NCBI GenBank assembly: GCA_944319795.1
Contig: CALUFA010000024.1
Span: 1 to 36,033 of the forward strand
Direction of reading: 5' to 3'
Origin: an uncultured Prevotella sp.
Lineage (GTDB): Bacteria > Bacteroidota > Bacteroidia > Bacteroidales > Bacteroidaceae
Length of the DNA: 36,033 bases
Shown: in pieces, positions 5,756 to 17,142 of the stretch
How positions within the stretch are numbered: the first letter of the stretch is position 1
Layout: each line of letters starts with the position of its first letter
Program-made: the position numbers and the translations under genes
Notes under the pieces: model-generated
Told to the model about the DNA's origin: nothing
Database searches by the model: none
What the model saw: the letters and a program-made list of their open reading frames with translations, nothing else

Positions 5756-5834
5756 CAAATAAAGGCCAATTTATCCGACTCGTACCTGTTAAAAAAATAT
5801 TATAGGCAATGGCGTATTTGCACATTGCTACAAA

Positions 5835-5952
5835 ATGTCGGCGGCAAAGCCGCAAGAAAACGGCAAACCGTCATCAGGCCGTCAACCAACGGGCGACGGC
5901 GCGCCGGGCGCCGTGCCGCCGACATGCCGGCTACGGTCGGATGACGGTTTGC
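5835..5952. repeat. two interleaved inverted repeats in intergenic DNA
   Basis: A 12-bp perfect pair (ATGTCGGCGGCA at 5835-5846 with 5914-5925) and a 13-bp perfect pair (GCAAACCGTCATC at 5863-5875 with 5940-5952) are interleaved as L1-L2-R1-R2. They lie in a GC-rich stretch within the 628-bp gap 5690-6317, which contains no credible gene. Confidence 0.6.
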
Positions 5953-6024
5953 ACGGTATCCGTAAACTGGCATGCAAACCGGGAAACGCCGCCGCAGGCC
6001 GGCCCTTGCGCCACGGGCGGAAAA

Positions 6025-6112
6025 GCGAACGGCTGCCTTTCGGCCTGCAAAAGGTAACCTTTCGGCGTATGAAAGGCGGTCTTTTATCGTACAAAAGGCC
6101 ACCTTTTGGAAT
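6025..6112. repeat. four tandem 22-bp dyad units (locus 1)
   Basis: Units begin at 6025, 6047, 6069 and 6091, exactly 22 bp apart. Examples are GCAAAAGGTAACCTTTCG, ATGAAAGGCGGTCTTTTA and ACAAAAGGCCACCTTTTG. Each unit has its own dyad symmetry around AAAGG-N3-CCTTT. The units are degenerate but phase-locked. Matching four-unit loci are at 10201 and 14989. Confidence 0.75.
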
Positions 6113-6190
6113 ATGATTTGTAAGGCGTTGAATGTCAATAAATTATGCAACGCATGGCTTAACGCGACATTCACGGTGTTATAATCGCAA

Positions 6191-6272
6191 TGAATGGCTG
6201 CAGTTTTGCAAATTGCAGCCATTCATCTTTAATTAATGTCAGCGTTTGGCTAAGTGCTGACATTAATGTTTT
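6191..6272 (+). terminator. two consecutive hairpins, the second with a T tract
   Basis: A 12-bp stem (TGAATGGCTGCA at 6191-6202 with 6214-6225) is followed by a 12-bp stem (ATTAATGTCAGC at 6232-6243 with 6256-6267). GTTTTT follows on the plus strand. No plus-strand gene precedes them. They may act bidirectionally for pepP, or end an unannotated small transcript. Confidence 0.45.
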
Positions 6273-6317: not shown

Positions 6318-8105
6318 TCATATCGTGCGGCACGCATCGGCTAACCAACGGCGGTCGGCTTCGTCGTCGAGCAGCGGCGAAAGGCGGTCGCACACGGTGC
6401 GGTGGTAGTCGTTCAGCCAATCCTTTTCCTCCGGGGCGAGCATCCCGGGGATTACGGGCGCAGTGTCGATGGGGCACAGCGTGAGTGGCTCGAAGCCGAG
6501 AAAACGGCCGAACTCGGTATCGCGGTAGGGCACGGCGAGCAGCGTGTTCTCGATGCGCACGCCGAAACGGCCGGCAAGGTAAACGCCCGGCTCGTCGGTT
6601 ACGGTCATGCCCTCTACTATCGGCGCAGGCTTGTATTCCATGCGTATCTGGTGGGGGCCTTCGTGTACGTTGAGGTACGAGCCTACGCCGTGGCCCGTAC
6701 CGTGCAGGTAGTTGAGGCCGTAGCGCCATAGGTCCTTACGGGCGAGGGCGTCGAGCTGGGTGCCCGACGCGCCGCGCGGAAACTTGCAAAGTTCAAGCTG
6801 GATGTGCCCTTTCAGCACAAGGGTGTACGCAAGCCGCTCTTCGTCGGTCAAAGGGCCGAGCGCTATGGTGCGTGTAATGTCGGTGGTGCCGTCGAGATAT
6901 TGCGCTCCCGAGTCTATAAGGATGAACCCTTCGGGGCGCAGGGCTGCGTCGGTGTCAGGCTCAGCCTCGTAATGCACTATCGCCCCGTGCTCGCGGTAGG
7001 CGGCTATCGTGTCGAACGAGAGGCCGCGGTACAACGGCTGTACGGCGCGCAGGCAGGCTAACTTGTCGCCGACCGACATCTCGGTCTGCTCTCCGGCCTC
7101 GACGGCGGGGCGCAGCCAGCGCAGGAACTTCACCAAGGCCACGCCGTCGCGCAGCATCGCCTGGCGGAAGCCTTCTATCTCTACGGTGTTCTTAACGGCC
7201 TTCATCGCCGGTATGGGCGACTCTGCCGCCACCTTCAGGCACGGTGGTATATTAAATAAGGTATAACAGGTTTCGTTGCGGTCCATCAGGATGTTGTACT
7301 CGCCGTAGGCCGCAAGCGCGCGGCGCACGTCGCCATAGTCGGCCGTGGCTACGCCTTCTGCGCTTAGGTATTCACGCACCTCGGGCGACAGTTTGGCCGG
7401 GTCGACGAACAGGGTGGCCTGCTTCGGGCCGATAAGAAGGTAAGCTACGAACACTGGGTTGCAGTGAACGTCGGTGCCGCGCAGGTTGAGCGTCCAGGCG
7501 ATGTCGTCGAGGGCAGACACCAGCATGCCGTAGGCGTGTCTCTCCCTGAGGCTCCGGCGTATGCGCTCCAGCTTCTCGCGGCACGGCTCGCCGGCGTATT
7601 CCAACGGGTGGACGACTACCTTGTCGGCCGGCACGGGCGGCCGGTCGTGCCATATAACGCTGAGGGGGTCGAAGTTGGTGCGCACGGTTATGCCGCCCTC
7701 GGCACGCAGTCCGGCTATCAGCGCGTCTACCGCCGCCGCCGAGTTCACCATGCCGTCTACGCCGACCGACGGACTTTCCACCGTGGCGAGCTTCATGCCG
7801 AGCCACTTGGTTATCGTCGGCGTGCCCTCAACACGCTCTTTCATCAGTTTGAAACCGGTGCCGCGCAGCTGTTCTTCGGCCGCAATGAAATAGCGCGAAT
7901 CGGTCCAAAGGGCGGCGTCGTCCATCGTCACCACCGCCGTTCCGGCCGACCCGTTGAATCCGCTTATCCACTTACGCCCCTCCCAATGGGCAGGTACGTA
8001 TTCGCCGTTATGCGGATCGGTACTGGGGAAAATAAAAGCGTCGATGCTCTCGCGCCGCATCACTTCGCGCAAGGCTTCAATCCTGTTGCAAATAATTTGG
8101 TTCAT
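6318..8105 (-). CDS. pepP: Xaa-Pro aminopeptidase (aminopeptidase P, M24B)
   Basis: This 595-residue enzyme removes N-terminal residues preceding proline. It has the long eukaryote-like three-domain layout: two creatinase-type N-terminal domains (about 1-300), the pita-bread M24B catalytic domain (about 305-530) and a C-terminal cap (about 535-595). The dinuclear metal ligands are all present: D398 (LIDSGAQY), D409 (GTTDITRT), H472 (HGTGHGVGSYLNVHEGPH), E505 (TVTDEPG) and E519 (VRIENT). No signal peptide is seen, so it is cytoplasmic. The start MNQIICNRIEALR sits directly after a tandem-repeat leader. It is divergent from mdh, with a strong promoter at 8280-8311. Confidence 0.93.
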   Translation of the reverse strand: MNQIICNRIEALREVMRRESIDAFIFPSTDPHNGEYVPAHWEGRKWISGFNGSAGTAVVTMDDAALWTDSRYFIAAEEQLRGTGFKLMKERVEGTPTITKWLGMKLATVESPSVGVDGMVNSAAAVDALIAGLRAEGGITVRTNFDPLSVIWHDRPPVPADKVVVHPLEYAGEPCREKLERIRRSLRERHAYGMLVSALDDIAWTLNLRGTDVHCNPVFVAYLLIGPKQATLFVDPAKLSPEVREYLSAEGVATADYGDVRRALAAYGEYNILMDRNETCYTLFNIPPCLKVAAESPIPAMKAVKNTVEIEGFRQAMLRDGVALVKFLRWLRPAVEAGEQTEMSVGDKLACLRAVQPLYRGLSFDTIAAYREHGAIVHYEAEPDTDAALRPEGFILIDSGAQYLDGTTDITRTIALGPLTDEERLAYTLVLKGHIQLELCKFPRGASGTQLDALARKDLWRYGLNYLHGTGHGVGSYLNVHEGPHQIRMEYKPAPIVEGMTVTDEPGVYLAGRFGVRIENTLLAVPYRDTEFGRFLGFEPLTLCPIDTAPVIPGMLAPEEKDWLNDYHRTVCDRLSPLLDDEADRRWLADACRTI

Positions 8106-8106
8106 A

Positions 8107-8218
8107 GTTGTGTGGTTGTGGGGTTATAAGGTTGTGTGGTTTTACGGTTATACGGTTGTGGGGTTATATGGTTTTACGGTTATACGGTTGTGCGGTTGTA
8201 CGGGTTATAAGGTTGTAA
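8107..8218 (-). repeat. degenerate tandem repeat in the pepP 5' leader
   Basis: On the plus strand this is a GGTTNTA-type G/T-rich repeat; in the pepP mRNA it reads ACAACC/ATAACC. A 23-bp string starting GGTTTTACGGTTATACGG occurs exactly at 8138-8160 and again at 8170-8192. GTTGTGGGGTTATA occurs at 8115 and 8155. It abuts the start codon. Confidence 0.8.
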
Positions 8219-8231
8219 GATGTTTGTTTTC

Positions 8232-8265
8232 TCACCTTTTCGCCTTCCCACCTTTTCACCTTTTG
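8232..8265 (-). repeat. short CACCTTTT-type repeats in the pepP leader
   Basis: CACCTTTTC, GCCTTCC, CACCTTTT and CACCTTTTG follow each other. In the pepP transcript they read as repeated AAAAGGTG, purine-rich and separate from the C/A-rich repeat nearer the start codon. Confidence 0.6.
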
Positions 8266-10156: not shown

Positions 10157-10201
10157 AAAGATTATTCGTCGTGTTTGGCAATAACACAACGAATAGTCTT
10201 T
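10157..10201 (-). terminator. 19-bp hairpin, candidate terminator of the CMD-cupin gene
   Basis: AAAGATTATTCGTCGTGTT (10157-10175) pairs with 10183-10201; its two mismatches are compatible with G-U in one orientation. On the minus strand the stem ends in CTTTTACG, a modest T tract. It is about 120 bp past the CMD-cupin stop, with repeat locus 2 in between. Confidence 0.45.
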
Positions 10202-10288
10202 GCGTTTGCCGCTTTTCATAGTGTAAAAGGCCATGTTTCAGTCTTCAAGACACTGTTTCTTGCCTTTTGAAAGACGGCCTTTCACACT
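10201..10288. repeat. four tandem 22-bp dyad units (locus 2)
   Basis: Units start at 10201, 10223, 10245 and 10267. GTAAAAGGCCATG (10223) and TTGAAAGACGGCCTTTCA (10267) are clearest; 10201 (TTTGCCGCTTTTCATAGT) and 10245 are degenerate. The outer parts also pair with each other (10220-10232 with 10276-10288, one mismatch). A TTCTTATACCGGACTCACG end motif of the other repeat family follows directly. Confidence 0.6.
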
Positions 10289-10322: not shown

Positions 10323-11438
10323 TCACTTCAACTTGTCGTATTCTTCATCCGTCACCGCTTCCAACCATTCGTTGGATGCGCCTTCGGCAGGCAGGGAAAT
10401 GGCAATGTGCTGGAACCATGAACCGGCGGTTGCTCCGTGCCAGTGTTTTACTTCGGCTGGGATGTTCACCACGTCGCCGGGGCGGAGCTTGCGGGCCGGC
10501 TTTCCCCATTCTTGGTACCAGCCTTCGCCGCCCACGCAGATAAGTATCTGGCCGCCTTTGTGGTGGATGTGCCAGTTGTTGCTGCAGCGCGGCTCAAACG
10601 TCACGTTCGACATCGGCAGGCCTTCCGTGAGCAGTGGGGCGAGGTAGCTGTTGCCGGTGAAATACCGGGCGTATGCCGTATTTGGTTCTCCCTTCGGGAA
10701 CATCATGTTATCCACGGGCTTGCCTTCGTTGAACGGCTCTCCGTATACTTCCGCAATCGCCTTGGCGGCACGGTAAGCCTCCGTGTCTCCAACATAGGCT
10801 GCCAGTACATGGGGAATGGCGTGTATCTCCTCATCGCTGACACCCATGTTCCTTGCGCCGCTGATGTGCGATTTCAATTGCGGTTCCACGCCCTGCATGG
10901 AAGCCAGCGCGCTGACGGTAACTATCTCGCGTTCGGCATGGGTAAGGATGTCGCGTGCGAAAATGTCACCGAACAGATGCGCCTTCAGGTAGTAGTCGGT
11001 TGCCGGGGCGAAGGCGTAGTCGAATGGTTTGCCGCCACACAGTTTGGTCTGCACGGCCGTGCCCTGTGCCAAAGCGTCGTAATCGGGGGCAAGCGGCGAG
11101 GCGTCCTTGCCACGTCGGTCTTCAATGCCTTTCGCCTTCCGGTCTGCCAGCACGCTTTGCAAAGCGCCAAGCCCGTTCAGGCTGCGCGGAAATCCGGTGT
11201 AGGCATACAGGTGCGAGAGTGCTTCTTTCGCTTCGTTGACGGTCAGTCCGCCGTCCAAGGCATCCGTGAGAGCGGTTTTCAAGCCTTCGATGTCGCCTTT
11301 CGCCTCGAAAGCGGCTATCACTGCCAGGTGTTGCTGTTTCTTGTTCAATACTTCCATATCGTTTTGTGCTTTGATTGTCGATAAGCCGCATGCCATGATG
11401 ACTAATGCGCAGGCGGCCATTCTGATTATTCTGTTCAT
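10323..11438 (-). CDS. exported carboxymuconolactone decarboxylase-like / cupin fusion protein
   Basis: A 371-residue protein with an N-terminal signal peptide (about 1-24, ending STIKAQ). Two carboxymuconolactone decarboxylase (CMD/PcaC-type) helical units lie at about 35-110 and 145-230; the second contains AEREIVTVSALASMQGV and lacks the AhpD CxxC redox pair. A C-terminal cupin_2 barrel spans about 265-350, with metal-site candidates H290, H292 and Q297 (NNWHIHHKGGQILICVGGEG) and H332/H334 (PAEVKHWHG). CMD-cupin fusions are known in many bacteria but their substrate is generally unclear. Export to the periplasm is inferred. It appears to be transcribed alone. Confidence 0.85.
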   Translation of the reverse strand: MNRIIRMAACALVIMACGLSTIKAQNDMEVLNKKQQHLAVIAAFEAKGDIEGLKTALTDALDGGLTVNEAKEALSHLYAYTGFPRSLNGLGALQSVLADRKAKGIEDRRGKDASPLAPDYDALAQGTAVQTKLCGGKPFDYAFAPATDYYLKAHLFGDIFARDILTHAEREIVTVSALASMQGVEPQLKSHISGARNMGVSDEEIHAIPHVLAAYVGDTEAYRAAKAIAEVYGEPFNEGKPVDNMMFPKGEPNTAYARYFTGNSYLAPLLTEGLPMSNVTFEPRCSNNWHIHHKGGQILICVGGEGWYQEWGKPARKLRPGDVVNIPAEVKHWHGATAGSWFQHIAISLPAEGASNEWLEAVTDEEYDKLK

Positions 11439-13733: not shown

Positions 13734-14924
13734 ATGGGAAATATAGACAAATACCTGTCAGACTTCCTCCGTTACACGGCCGGGGTGTCCGAGGACATAT
13801 TGTATTGGGTTTATCCGCTGACGGCGGCTTTCGGCATAGCCGTCTTGTCGTATGCGTGTACGGCGGCGTTCCGTTTCGCCGTTATGCCCGCCGTGCAGAA
13901 ACTTACCGAAAGGACGAAGGCCACTTGGGACGATTATCTTTTCAACGCGAAAGTGATGAGGGCTTTCCGCCGCATCATTCCGCCAGTAGTGTGGTATGTG
14001 GCGCTGCCTGCCGTGCTCACCCATTCGCCGTCGCTGCTGCTGTTCCTGCAGAAAGTCTGCAACATATACCTCGTCATAGTGTCGCTTATGTTCGTAAGCG
14101 TGTTCATCCATTCGCTTTACGAAATATCCGAGTCTCACCAGAAGTTGCGCAACCGTCCGCTGAAAGGCGTCTACCAGATGTTCAACCTCCTCGCCTTCGT
14201 CCTCGGCTGCATACTCGTAATAAGCATAGTCATCGACAAGAGCGCGACGGCCGTGCTTGCCGGCCTTGGAGCGTCGGCGGCCGTGCTGATGCTGATTTTC
14301 AAGGACTCGATACTCGGCCTCGTTGCCGGCGTGCAGCTGTCGGCCAACGACATGCTGCGCCCGGGCGACTGGATAACGATGGACAAATACGGCGCCAACG
14401 GCTTCGTCATAGAAGTGTCGCTGACTACGGTCAAGGTGCAGAACTTCGACAAGACGATAACCACCATTCCGCCTTACGCCCTCGTAAGCGACTCGTTCCA
14501 GAACTGGCGCTTCATGCGCGAGTCGGGCGGTAGGCGCATGAAGCTGTCGGTGAACATCGACTCCAACTCGGTGCATTTCTGTGAAAAGGACGAGATTCAG
14601 CGGTATGTGGATAAGGGGTTCATACCAGCGGAGCGTTACGCCGACCACGGTTTTCCGATAGCCAACACGCAGGTTTACCGCGACTTCATGATGGATTTCA
14701 TGCGGCGTCATCCCGACGTGAACAAGGACATGATGATAATGGTGCGCATGCTCCAGCCTACGCCCGAGGGGCTTCCCGTCGAACTGTATTGCTTCTCTTC
14801 GTTTACAGACTGGCAACCTTTCGAGCGTTTCCAGGGCGAAATGCTCGATTACGCCTTGGTTATGGCCCGCGAGTTCGGTCTTAGGATATTCCAGCGCCCG
14901 TCGGGAATTGACTTTACCAAGTGA
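13734..14924 (+). CDS. mechanosensitive ion channel, MscS family (YbdG-like)
   Basis: A 396-residue inner-membrane channel of the MscS superfamily, which opens under membrane tension to release solutes during osmotic downshock. Predicted transmembrane segments are at about 22-46, 82-98, 105-128 and 148-168. The pore helix is at about 172-200, with the Gly/Ala-rich AVLAGLGASAAVLMLIFKDS. The beta domain follows (LRPGDWITMDKYGANGFVIE) and then the cytoplasmic cage. The long C-terminal region and WDDYLFN loop resemble the YbdG/MscM branch, with moderate certainty on the subfamily. It starts GNIDKYLSDF, shortly after its promoter. Confidence 0.88.
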   Translation: MGNIDKYLSDFLRYTAGVSEDILYWVYPLTAAFGIAVLSYACTAAFRFAVMPAVQKLTERTKATWDDYLFNAKVMRAFRRIIPPVVWYVALPAVLTHSPSLLLFLQKVCNIYLVIVSLMFVSVFIHSLYEISESHQKLRNRPLKGVYQMFNLLAFVLGCILVISIVIDKSATAVLAGLGASAAVLMLIFKDSILGLVAGVQLSANDMLRPGDWITMDKYGANGFVIEVSLTTVKVQNFDKTITTIPPYALVSDSFQNWRFMRESGGRRMKLSVNIDSNSVHFCEKDEIQRYVDKGFIPAERYADHGFPIANTQVYRDFMMDFMRRHPDVNKDMMIMVRMLQPTPEGLPVELYCFSSFTDWQPFERFQGEMLDYALVMAREFGLRIFQRPSGIDFTK

Positions 14925-14988
14925 AGGGTACGGGTGGGGAATCCGTTAATCGCGGGCTGATAATTGTCGTACCGTTTCAAGCCATGTT

Positions 14989-15076
14989 ATGAAAGGCCGC
15001 CTTTTGCATCGTAAAAGGCGGCTTTTTATATTGTAAAAGGCCATGAATTGGAACGTAAAAGGCCATATCTTGCTAA
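14989..15076. repeat. four tandem 22-bp dyad units (locus 3)
   Basis: Units start at 14989, 15011, 15033 and 15055, exactly 22 bp apart. ATGAAAGGCCGCCTTTTGC and GTAAAAGGCGGCTTTTTA are near-perfect dyads; the last two keep GTAAAAGGCCAT but lose the right half. The array starts 65 bp after the MscS-type gene stop. The 799-bp gap 14925-15723 also holds copy B, a 24-codon relic and a structured leader. Confidence 0.8.
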
Positions 15077-15200
15077 ATGCGTGGTAATCAGCGTGTTGGT
15101 CGGGCGTATCTCCCCGCGTTACCAAATGCAACGCCGTGGCGGCGGTTTTACGGGTGGATGATGCTACGGGTGGATGATGCTTGGTGGACAAGCAGACTTA

Positions 15201-15414
15201 ATGTCAGTTCGGTATAATGAAAAGGAATCCATTCTAAACCGTAAGAAATCTATGGCATACCGTCATTCCGGGCTTAGACCCGGAATCCAGGAAACATTCT
15301 TTTGAGAATAAAGTGTTTTTTATATTGGTTTCCGGGTCTAAGCCCGGAATGACGGTATGCCATAGACTTCTTATCGGATAGATTGATTATATTTTCTTAT
15401 ACCGAACTGGCGTA
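15201..15414. repeat. nested palindromic repeat element, copy B
   Basis: The ends are inverted: GTCAGTTCGGTATAATGA at 15203-15220 and TTCTTATACCGAACTGGCG at 15394-15412. Inside is a 46-bp inverted repeat (15243-15288 with 15327-15372, two mismatches) carrying GTCATTCCGGG-CCCGGAAT. Shared strings with copy A include CATTCTAAAC-GTAAGAA-TCT and GGCATAC-GTCATTC. No coding capacity. Confidence 0.8.
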
Positions 15415-15723: not shown

Positions 15724-17142
15724 ATGTTAGTAAACACTAAAGCAAGAGTAGGCGTTTTCTCTATCGCCTTGGGCGCGTATTTACCCCAGTTCCCTTCATT
15801 GGTACCCGAGTTTGAGGCTCAATATGAGGCTTTCAAGAAGATGATTCCCGATACTGTCGAGATAATCGACGGAGGTTTGGTTACGACTAAAGAGCAGTCG
15901 CAGGCAGCCGGAGACAAGTTCCGCGCAGCCGACGTTGACATCGTTATGATGCAGCTTCTCACTTATGCCACATCTTATAATATGCTTCCGGCCGTCAAGG
16001 ACCTCGACGTCCCGGTAGTACTCGTGAACATACAGAAGCTCAAGGCCCTTGACTACGACCATACCGACATCGCCTCTTGGCTGGGCGAAGGCTACGCCTG
16101 CGGCGCAGTAGGCGAGATGGTTGCCGACCTTGAGCGCTACGGCAAGCGCCACGCCGTAATCACGGGAGTGGTTGAAGGCGGCGACCCGCAGGTTCAGGAG
16201 GAAATCGACGACTGGTGCCGCGCGGCACAAGTGAGGAGGCGCTTCCGCGATACGAACATCGCCCAGATAGGCCGCCCGTATCCCGGAATGATGGACCTTT
16301 ACATTGACGAGTCGAACCTTTACCGCCGCATGCACCTCTACACCAAGCAGTTTGACTGGGAAAAAATGTGGGCCATCGCCGACAACATCACCGACGACGA
16401 GGCCATCCGCGCCAAGGCCCAAGACATACTCGACACCTTCGACATCGAGGGCGGAGGCAGCATAGAGGAAGTTTGGGAGATGGCCAAGTACGTGGTTGCC
16501 TTCGAACAGTGGGTTAAGGACGAGAAACTCGGCCTTATCGCATCTCACTACGACGGCTACGCACAGGGCAAGGCCGGCGTGTTGGACAGCATGCTGATAC
16601 CGGCCTTCTCGATGCTCATCAAGCAAGGCACGGCCTGCGCCGTAGAAGGCGACATGAAAGTTGCTATGGCCATGAGCATAATGAAGACCATCTCGGGCAC
16701 GGGACAGTTAGCCGAGATGTACTCTATCGACTTCAACGACGACATCGCCATCATCGGCCACAGCGGTTCGGGCGACGCCGACATCTCGGATAAGAAGCCG
16801 ACGATGAAGATTGTCAAGGTGTTCCACGGCAAGACCGGCGGTGGATATCTCACGCAGTTCTATCCGTACCTCGGCCCAGTTACGTATCTCGCAATAACCC
16901 AAGACGGAGACGGGCACTTCAAGTTCGTGGTAGCCGAGGGCGTGAACGAGGAAGGAAAGATCTTGTCGTTCGGCGACACTAACATGCGCACGCGCTTCAC
17001 TTGCGGTGCGCGCGACTTCGTTACGCGCTGGAGCGAGTGCGGCCCGACCCACCACTTCGCCGCCGCAACGGGCCGCCATATCGACACGATACTGAAGGTC
17101 GCAAAGATATTCAACGTGCCCGTAGACGTCGTAACACGATAA
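15724..17142 (+). CDS. L-fucose/L-arabinose isomerase-family protein
   Basis: A 472-residue cytoplasmic protein of the arabinose/fucose isomerase superfamily, which interconverts aldoses and ketoses using Mn2+. Candidate metal ligands are in the expected order: E308 (ACAVEGD), E331 (QLAEMYSIDF), H346 (IIGHSGSGD) and H443/H444 (CGPTHHFA). The GPTHH box near the C-terminus is typical of AraA-like enzymes. The N-terminus (ARVGVFSIALGAYLPQFP) differs from classical AraA, so the substrate is uncertain and I give no symbol. No other sugar genes are adjacent. It has an attenuator-like leader, and a 31-bp perfect hairpin follows the stop. Confidence 0.75.
   Translation: MLVNTKARVGVFSIALGAYLPQFPSLVPEFEAQYEAFKKMIPDTVEIIDGGLVTTKEQSQAAGDKFRAADVDIVMMQLLTYATSYNMLPAVKDLDVPVVLVNIQKLKALDYDHTDIASWLGEGYACGAVGEMVADLERYGKRHAVITGVVEGGDPQVQEEIDDWCRAAQVRRRFRDTNIAQIGRPYPGMMDLYIDESNLYRRMHLYTKQFDWEKMWAIADNITDDEAIRAKAQDILDTFDIEGGGSIEEVWEMAKYVVAFEQWVKDEKLGLIASHYDGYAQGKAGVLDSMLIPAFSMLIKQGTACAVEGDMKVAMAMSIMKTISGTGQLAEMYSIDFNDDIAIIGHSGSGDADISDKKPTMKIVKVFHGKTGGGYLTQFYPYLGPVTYLAITQDGDGHFKFVVAEGVNEEGKILSFGDTNMRTRFTCGARDFVTRWSECGPTHHFAAATGRHIDTILKVAKIFNVPVDVVTR

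Follow-up and report, generated by a model that had tools for sequence, protein, structure and literature searches.

Evenly distanced intergenic palindrome arrays in Prevotella chromosomes point to a possible undescribed chromosome-organising system

Several Prevotella chromosomes carry evenly distanced short tandem blocks of palindromes, similar to protein-binding sites, between their genes, usually of four or five units each, which point to an undescribed chromosome-organising system. The window analysed here, a stretch of 36,033 nucleotides from an uncultured Prevotella sp., contains three such blocks (Table 1). The original prediction had described them from the letters of the window, and the further loci that it anticipated were found: 84 arrays lie in 773 kb of the 2.61-Mb genome (2,612,451 bases), which extrapolates to about 280 arrays genome-wide. 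The observation itself is thus confirmed as real, and the claims built on it were borne out in part. In the reading that we prefer, and that we regard as evenly poised between right and wrong, the arrays would be platforms of set size for a putative architectural protein, with a minimum distance between them kept by selection. The even chromosomal spacing, the differing unit numbers in related species and the two-fold symmetry that each array has as a unit all go beyond what had been predicted.

Table 1. Arrays in the window and the genes that adjoin them
Feature	Position	Strand	Description
Array 1	6024..6111	.	Four units at 6024, 6046, 6068 and 6090; scores all positive
Right neighbour of array 1	6318..8105	-	Peptidase_M24 (creatinase/prolidase-type); 3' end 206 bp from array
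Array 2	10200..10287	.	Degenerate; 10222 and 10266 hold good units, 10244 a weak one and 10200 none
Right neighbour of array 2	10323..11438	-	Carboxymuconolactone decarboxylase/cupin gene; 35 bp between array and 3' end
Left (upstream) neighbour of array 3	13734..14924	+	Protein with an MS_channel_2nd (mechanosensitive channel) domain; array begins 63 bp after the 3' end
Array 3 (focal)	14988..15075	.	Four 22-bp units at 14988, 15010, 15032 and 15054
Downstream neighbour of array 3	15724..17142	+	472 aa; start 648 bp beyond array

The arrays are built from a 22-bp repeat with a unit consensus of approximately TTSY AAAAGG C N G CCTTTT R S N N. In the focal array, whose core is YAAAAGGCNGCCTTTTR, the four units score 25.8, 23.2, 15.4 and 15.5 bits against the family profile, the right half-sites of units 3 and 4 being decayed, and the 22-bp slots that adjoin the array score -15.6 and -23.4 bits. 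On the same profile the units of array 1 score 15.2, 21.8, 19.3 and 25.8 bits. Three loci of four units each had been proposed for the window, in a 22-bp register. Read directly from the sequence, the register was right to within one base, and four units stand for arrays 1 and 3 but not for array 2, where scores of -3.3, 16.0, 4.5 and 20.4 bits on the family profile leave two good units. The proximity of two arrays to a gene 3' end, put at no more than about 65 bp, also held, with distances of 63 bp for array 3 and 35 bp for array 2. A mechanical open reading frame on the minus strand (5800-6222) overlaps array 1 and is dropped by the coding-score caller. The product of the gene downstream of the focal array has no Pfam match at 1e-5. 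Beyond position 15,076 the window consists largely of ribosomal protein, EF-G and SecY genes, and no array was detected there.

Other elements were seen in the same window. A 16-bp unit, TACGGGTGGATGATGC, occurs in two exact copies at 15149-15181, ~75 bp past the focal array, and a second dispersed repeat, an inverted repeat of the type GTCATTCCGGGC...GACCCGGAATCC, lies at 15261-15290, close to that array; it also adjoins arrays on contig C6 of the same genome (G000), at about 45.4 and 49.7 kb. Positions 8107-8264 are densely filled with tandem repeats that have periods of 8, 24 and 32 bp (GGTTATACG-like), and a lactate/malate dehydrogenase gene lies ~250 bp downstream of them. A tyrosine recombinase (Phage_integrase with a SAM-like N domain), presumably XerC/D-like, is encoded at 537-1421.

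The number of units per array is largely uniform within most of the species that we looked at. A run-based caller assigned four units to 63 of 80 arrays in this genome, three to 13, two to 2 and five to 2. In most arrays the slots that border the four units have strongly negative scores, which indicates a unit number without minisatellite-like drift. Four units were likewise found in 37/41 arrays of one relative (G065) and in 11/13 arrays of another (G053), and all 20 P. histicola arrays, at loci picked by a two-and-a-half-unit pattern, have five. In G010, which we take to be P. bivia, the number is not fixed, with 9 five-unit, 8 four-unit and 6 three-unit runs, one of two units and one of a single unit among 25. 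A variable-number minisatellite was rejected on these counts, as the free variation in copy number expected of one is not seen in the own genome, G065, G053 or P. histicola, P. bivia being mixed. Two exceptional arrays in the own genome contain six units (L060 3594, on contig C35) and five (L067 3795, on C46). On contig C3 of the P. bivia genome, two pairs of arrays (40843/40975 and 58584/58716) are each 132 bp apart, or six unit lengths, and keep the 22-bp phase across the gap.

Each array is also symmetric as a whole, with TT to the left of units 1-2 and AA to the right of units 3-4, an arrangement that is repeated in P. histicola. Loop bases are variable beside strongly conserved half-sites. 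The flanks carry a weak trace of the unit only, ~0.2-0.35 bits at a few positions, and over 40 bp on each side conservation drops to ~0.3 bits or less past the bordering T. Terminal inverted repeats flanking a body were not found; the array is itself symmetric and bodiless. The largely fixed unit number and the exact register lend support to the proposal that selection may act on the 22-bp spacing.

Detection was controlled with reversed and shuffled sequence. An exact pattern of one unit plus the next half-site gave 69 matches in the whole genome against 0 in the reversed control, and a profile run over 606 kb found 75 four-unit arrays that reached 25 bits, where reversed sequence gave 1. A looser symmetrised profile at 24 bits gave 116 matches against 4 in the examined parts of the own genome; at loci of other species it gave 46 against 18, so that reversed sequence is no clean control for those loci. 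When runs were fitted to each species, block-shuffled sequence of all four genomes yielded none that reached 20 bits. A whole-genome model search returned at least 158 matches, on both strands, with 150 of 1,227 candidates scored, and is therefore no census.

Strong dyads are confined to the arrays. Within the 773 kb, 150 units scoring at least 20 bits lie inside arrays and 0 outside. At 18 bits or more the counts are 197 inside and 2 outside, with 0 in shuffled sequence, and at 15 bits or more they are 246 inside and 7 outside, with 5 in shuffled sequence.

The family extends to other members of the genus. Exact patterns detect near-consensus copies only, so the counts are lower bounds: among 150 genomes from the genus, at least 13 carry the pattern, the own genome included, and none of 47 genomes from other families of the order has such a near-consensus copy. 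Named hosts are P. histicola, P. bivia, Leyella stercorea, Xylanibacter rarus and four uncultured Prevotella assemblies. Loop and half-site preferences vary between species. In five genomes (G004, G143, G131, G145 and G060), 25 loci were inspected, without a formal unit count.

With respect to genes, the predicted intergenic location was confirmed: among the 63 arrays that have a called gene on both sides (coding-score caller), none overlaps a gene by more than 20 bp. These arrays lie between divergent genes in 19 cases, between convergent genes in 12 and between codirectional genes in 32, and in 29 of the 32 codirectional cases the array is nearer the upstream 3' end. Placement is biased to gene 3' ends, 27/56 of the adjoining 3' ends being within 100 bp of an array, as against 3/70 of the adjoining gene starts.

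Spacing along the chromosome was measured on the six largest contigs (C1-C6, with C4 minus its last 1,059 bases) and the window contig, together 772,902 of 2,612,451 bases. The 84 arrays are separated by 77 gaps with a mean of 8,867 bp, a coefficient of variation (CV) of 0.453, a minimum of 3,713 bp and a maximum of 23,309 bp. No gap is shorter than 3.5 kb, compared with 25 under uniform placement (minimum 13 in 5,000 trials), for which the CV is 0.95. Random choice of intergenic positions, a null whose crude ORF caller puts only 61/84 arrays in its intergenic regions, gives 20-23 gaps below 3.5 kb and a CV of 0.84-0.89; none of 4,000 such trials, in each of two modes, was as even as the observed arrays.

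A shortage of short gaps is observed in three relatives as well, making four genomes. With the cut-off at 0.4 x each genome's mean gap, which was our own choice, and with phased neighbours less than 400 bp apart merged beforehand in the relatives (the two P. bivia pairs 132 bp apart), G065 has 5/35 short gaps against 10.0 expected (P 0.016), G053 0/12 against 3.3 (P 0.008) and P. bivia 2/21 against 7.0 (P 0.004). When all gaps are counted, none of these three genomes has a significantly low CV (P 0.06-0.26). In the own genome the arrays keep to a minimum gap without following a strict period.

The first 452 kb of the P. bivia contig hold 19 arrays, in a hand-picked list with one array per phased pair and an end, before an island, chosen after seeing the data; the 18 gaps of 13.6-45.7 kb (mean ~25 kb) have a CV of 0.32, and none of 50,000 uniform trials was as even. 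The island, at 463-572 kb of contig C3 of that genome, is a stretch of ~109 kb with one single-unit match and without a multi-unit array. It has 43% GC, and 4/83 of its genes have relatives in the examined parts of other genomes, compared with 102/334 in the 450 kb before it. It is probably an acquired island.

Two readings of the dyads had been offered, a protein binding each dyad and a series of RNA hairpins. The hairpins were not supported, since the named base pairs lack compensatory change. In an alignment of 60 of 72 arrays, the 12 omitted being among the weaker ones, the covariation of local hairpins is 0.159 against 0.176 in shuffles (495/500 shuffles at least as high), that of a 41-pair long stem 0.183 against 0.189, and that of spacer hairpins 0.178 against 0.177. 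RNA or cruciform hairpins were accordingly rejected, none of the three structures covarying above shuffles, and so was a structured RNA family, as an Rfam search of the window gave 0 gathering matches and none of these helices covaries. Instead, the 25 strongest within-unit couplings include positions 5-7, 13-15 and pairs around the loop, and a single dyad-symmetric pair is found among them, 9-11, in the loop. The strongest couplings are thus local to the half-sites, consistent with a protein dimer code on duplex DNA. Dyad symmetry without base pairing likewise suggests a protein dimer on duplex DNA, and the proposal of a protein on each dyad may be considered backed by the sequence, the local coupling included.

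Array positions turn over between species. Of 127 reciprocal-best-hit genes shared by the own genome and G065, 7 adjoin arrays in both, 4 of them on the same side (Fisher P 0.053); the corresponding figures are 1/68 orthologues for G053 (P 0.60) and 1/103 for P. bivia (P 0.74). Two neighbourhoods on contig C5, in each of which an array adjoins at least two orthologous genes, are kept in G065. Arrays at orthologous positions show a free-position likeness of 0.31-0.44 (five pairs), with a random mean of 0.36, and since they are hardly more alike than random pairs, they cannot be used to date the arrays. A bare 88-bp insertion facing an empty site was not found in four of five aligned orthologous regions, and the fifth has the array in both genomes.

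Arrays are nevertheless copied. Pairs with at least 66/88 identical positions number 90, as against 24.6 in unit-shuffled arrays, and the arrays at 45551 and 49505 on contig C6 are identical at 83/88 positions, with ~25 bp of one flank in common and flanks otherwise unrelated; together, the excess and this pair indicate that array copying occurs. Another similar pair is part of a segmental duplication. Searched for target-site duplications, the flanks share 5-mers at 25 of 114 arrays against 22.0 in shuffled flanks, 6-mers at 7 against 6.7, 7-mers at 1 against 2.2 and 8-mers at 1 against 0.4. The own genome, 97.67% complete, has 0 matches to the Y1 (RAYT-type) transposase, and RAYT-driven REP was rejected on this ground; Y1 matches are present in 4/9 array-bearing and 7/10 pattern-free genomes. 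Given the absence of both target-site duplications and a Y1 match, the labels MITE and REP fit poorly. PF09299 (Mu/Tn7-type transposase) matched 0/19 genomes, the control genomes being silent too. The exact two-unit pattern found one matching stretch only in the viral contigs, on which a viral origin was rejected.

The main rival to platforms is a non-autonomous, MITE-like mobile element consisting of transposase-binding sites, because minimum spacing and copying also follow from target immunity; an element that does not insert close to a copy already in place, like Tn7 or Mu, would by that alone give even spacing. The copied pair on C6 with its mostly unrelated flanks, the excess of similar pairs, the turnover of positions and a minimum gap in place of a strict period are all in keeping with it. 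Nevertheless, we think it unlikely, as the flanks show no excess of 5- to 8-mer target-site duplications, loop bases vary beside strongly conserved half-sites, four species each have a preferred unit number (P. bivia does not) and viral contigs yielded the one stretch. Sites for a global regulator of transcription that controls genes one by one would account for the protein-like half-site code and for the arrays between divergent genes (19/63), and we hold this reading to be less probable again: gene starts within 100 bp are rare (3/70) compared with 3' ends (27/56), the spacing is more even than random intergenic choice gives, and isolated strong sites are absent from the 773 kb.

Tandem transcription terminators, or hairpins that stabilise RNA, are suggested by the resemblance of AAAAGGC/GCCTTTT to a bidirectional terminator and by the bias to gene 3' ends. 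Yet the three structures tested lack base-pair covariation, the same 19 of 63 arrays stand between divergent genes, and termination needs no preferred number, register or spacing, which leaves this explanation improbable. At least as improbable, and perhaps slightly more so, are tags for DNA uptake or self-recognition, comparable to the uptake sequences of Haemophilus and Neisseria. Many chromosomal copies at fairly even spacing would suit such tags, and PMC1939737 takes up how evenly uptake sequences are spaced, which is read as a hint of roles in replication, repair or compaction and is later doubted as insufficiently even. The arrays, however, amount to one 88-bp block per 9-25 kb rather than to many single short words, and they are intergenic, with isolated strong units absent. 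Regulator sites, terminators and uptake tags all fit less well than platforms or target immunity.

On the platform reading, one dimer of the putative protein would bind each 22-bp dyad through the half-sites AAAAGG/CCTTTT and their variants. About four dimers would then be aligned two helical turns apart, five in P. histicola and four or five in P. bivia, and the dimers on one array may form a single two-fold symmetric complex. Such platforms, between genes, often just past their 3' ends and a minimum distance apart along the chromosome, could anchor, loop or bound chromosomal domains. We infer the protein, its stoichiometry and a chromosome-organising role, the last from spacing and placement alone. 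A fuller version, which we put forward as possible but doubtful, sees a built-in ruler: hundreds of nucleoprotein platforms sharing one architecture, each with four or five dimers in strict helical register and at a selected minimum distance, would serve as distributed anchors or domain boundaries, perhaps as a holocentric-like segregation or looping system.

Candidates for the binding protein were considered among the genes beside arrays. An XRE-cupin gene adjoins the five-unit array L067 3795 and stands beside an array in two species; it was rejected as the binder, being absent from 5/9 array-bearing and present in 9/10 pattern-free genomes. The genes that adjoin arrays in as many as three or four species, which we take to be ABC-transporter genes, an ExbB/MotA-like gene and a translation GTPase, gave no candidate.

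To our knowledge, chromosome folding in Bacteroidota has been little explored. An evenly spaced binding array would be a sequence-level handle on it, with domain positions readable from the genome. The arrays also pose an evolutionary puzzle, in that hundreds of loci shift position yet hold their mutual distance, and unit number largely agrees within most species looked at. The literature searches that we made returned no description of these arrays. The defining features of REP elements, MITEs, minisatellites and RNA families that we tested were not found in them.

Several known systems share individual features with the arrays. In the ParR/parC centromeres of plasmids, tandem protein sites stand in helical phase at one locus per replicon, whereas here hundreds of short arrays are distributed over a chromosome. 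The ends of Tn7 and Mu carry several ~22-bp transposase sites within ~90 bp, and these elements show target immunity. The arrays resemble them in both site size and extent, and target immunity could space the copies, but the dyads here are symmetric, with no transposon body and no target-site duplication. REP/BIME elements are short palindromic extragenic repeats, present in hundreds per genome and often near gene 3' ends, a description that the arrays share as far as palindromes, numbers and placement are concerned. They differ in having no pairing covariation and, in the own genome, no Y1 match, and in their 22-bp register, preferred number and even spacing. Looping and compaction of DNA by a site-specific protein are known from MatP, whose palindromic matS sites, like the arrays, are scattered over a chromosome.

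A recent survey of REP elements (PMC12306157) does not mention Prevotella by name in its main text. Closer in host is BrickBuilt, a MITE minisatellite of Porphyromonas gingivalis, which according to PMC4596501 has 23-nt tandem units dispersed in a Bacteroidales genome and terminal inverted repeats like those of IS elements and MITEs, and is grouped with MITEs of ~10-20 copies. The likeness in host order and in dispersed short tandem units contrasts with the lack of duplicated target sites, the ~280 copies by extrapolation and the 22-bp dyads of the arrays described here. Scattered architectural sites are, as a working principle, already known. According to PMC12284271, SegB of Sulfolobales is a site-specific protein by which DNA is looped and compacted through scattered palindromes, 46 short motifs in S. 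solfataricus that are mostly intragenic, and thus illustrates that scattered palindromes can organise a chromosome. The Prevotella sites differ from those of SegB in being grouped into arrays, intergenic and evenly spaced, with a protein that is putative.
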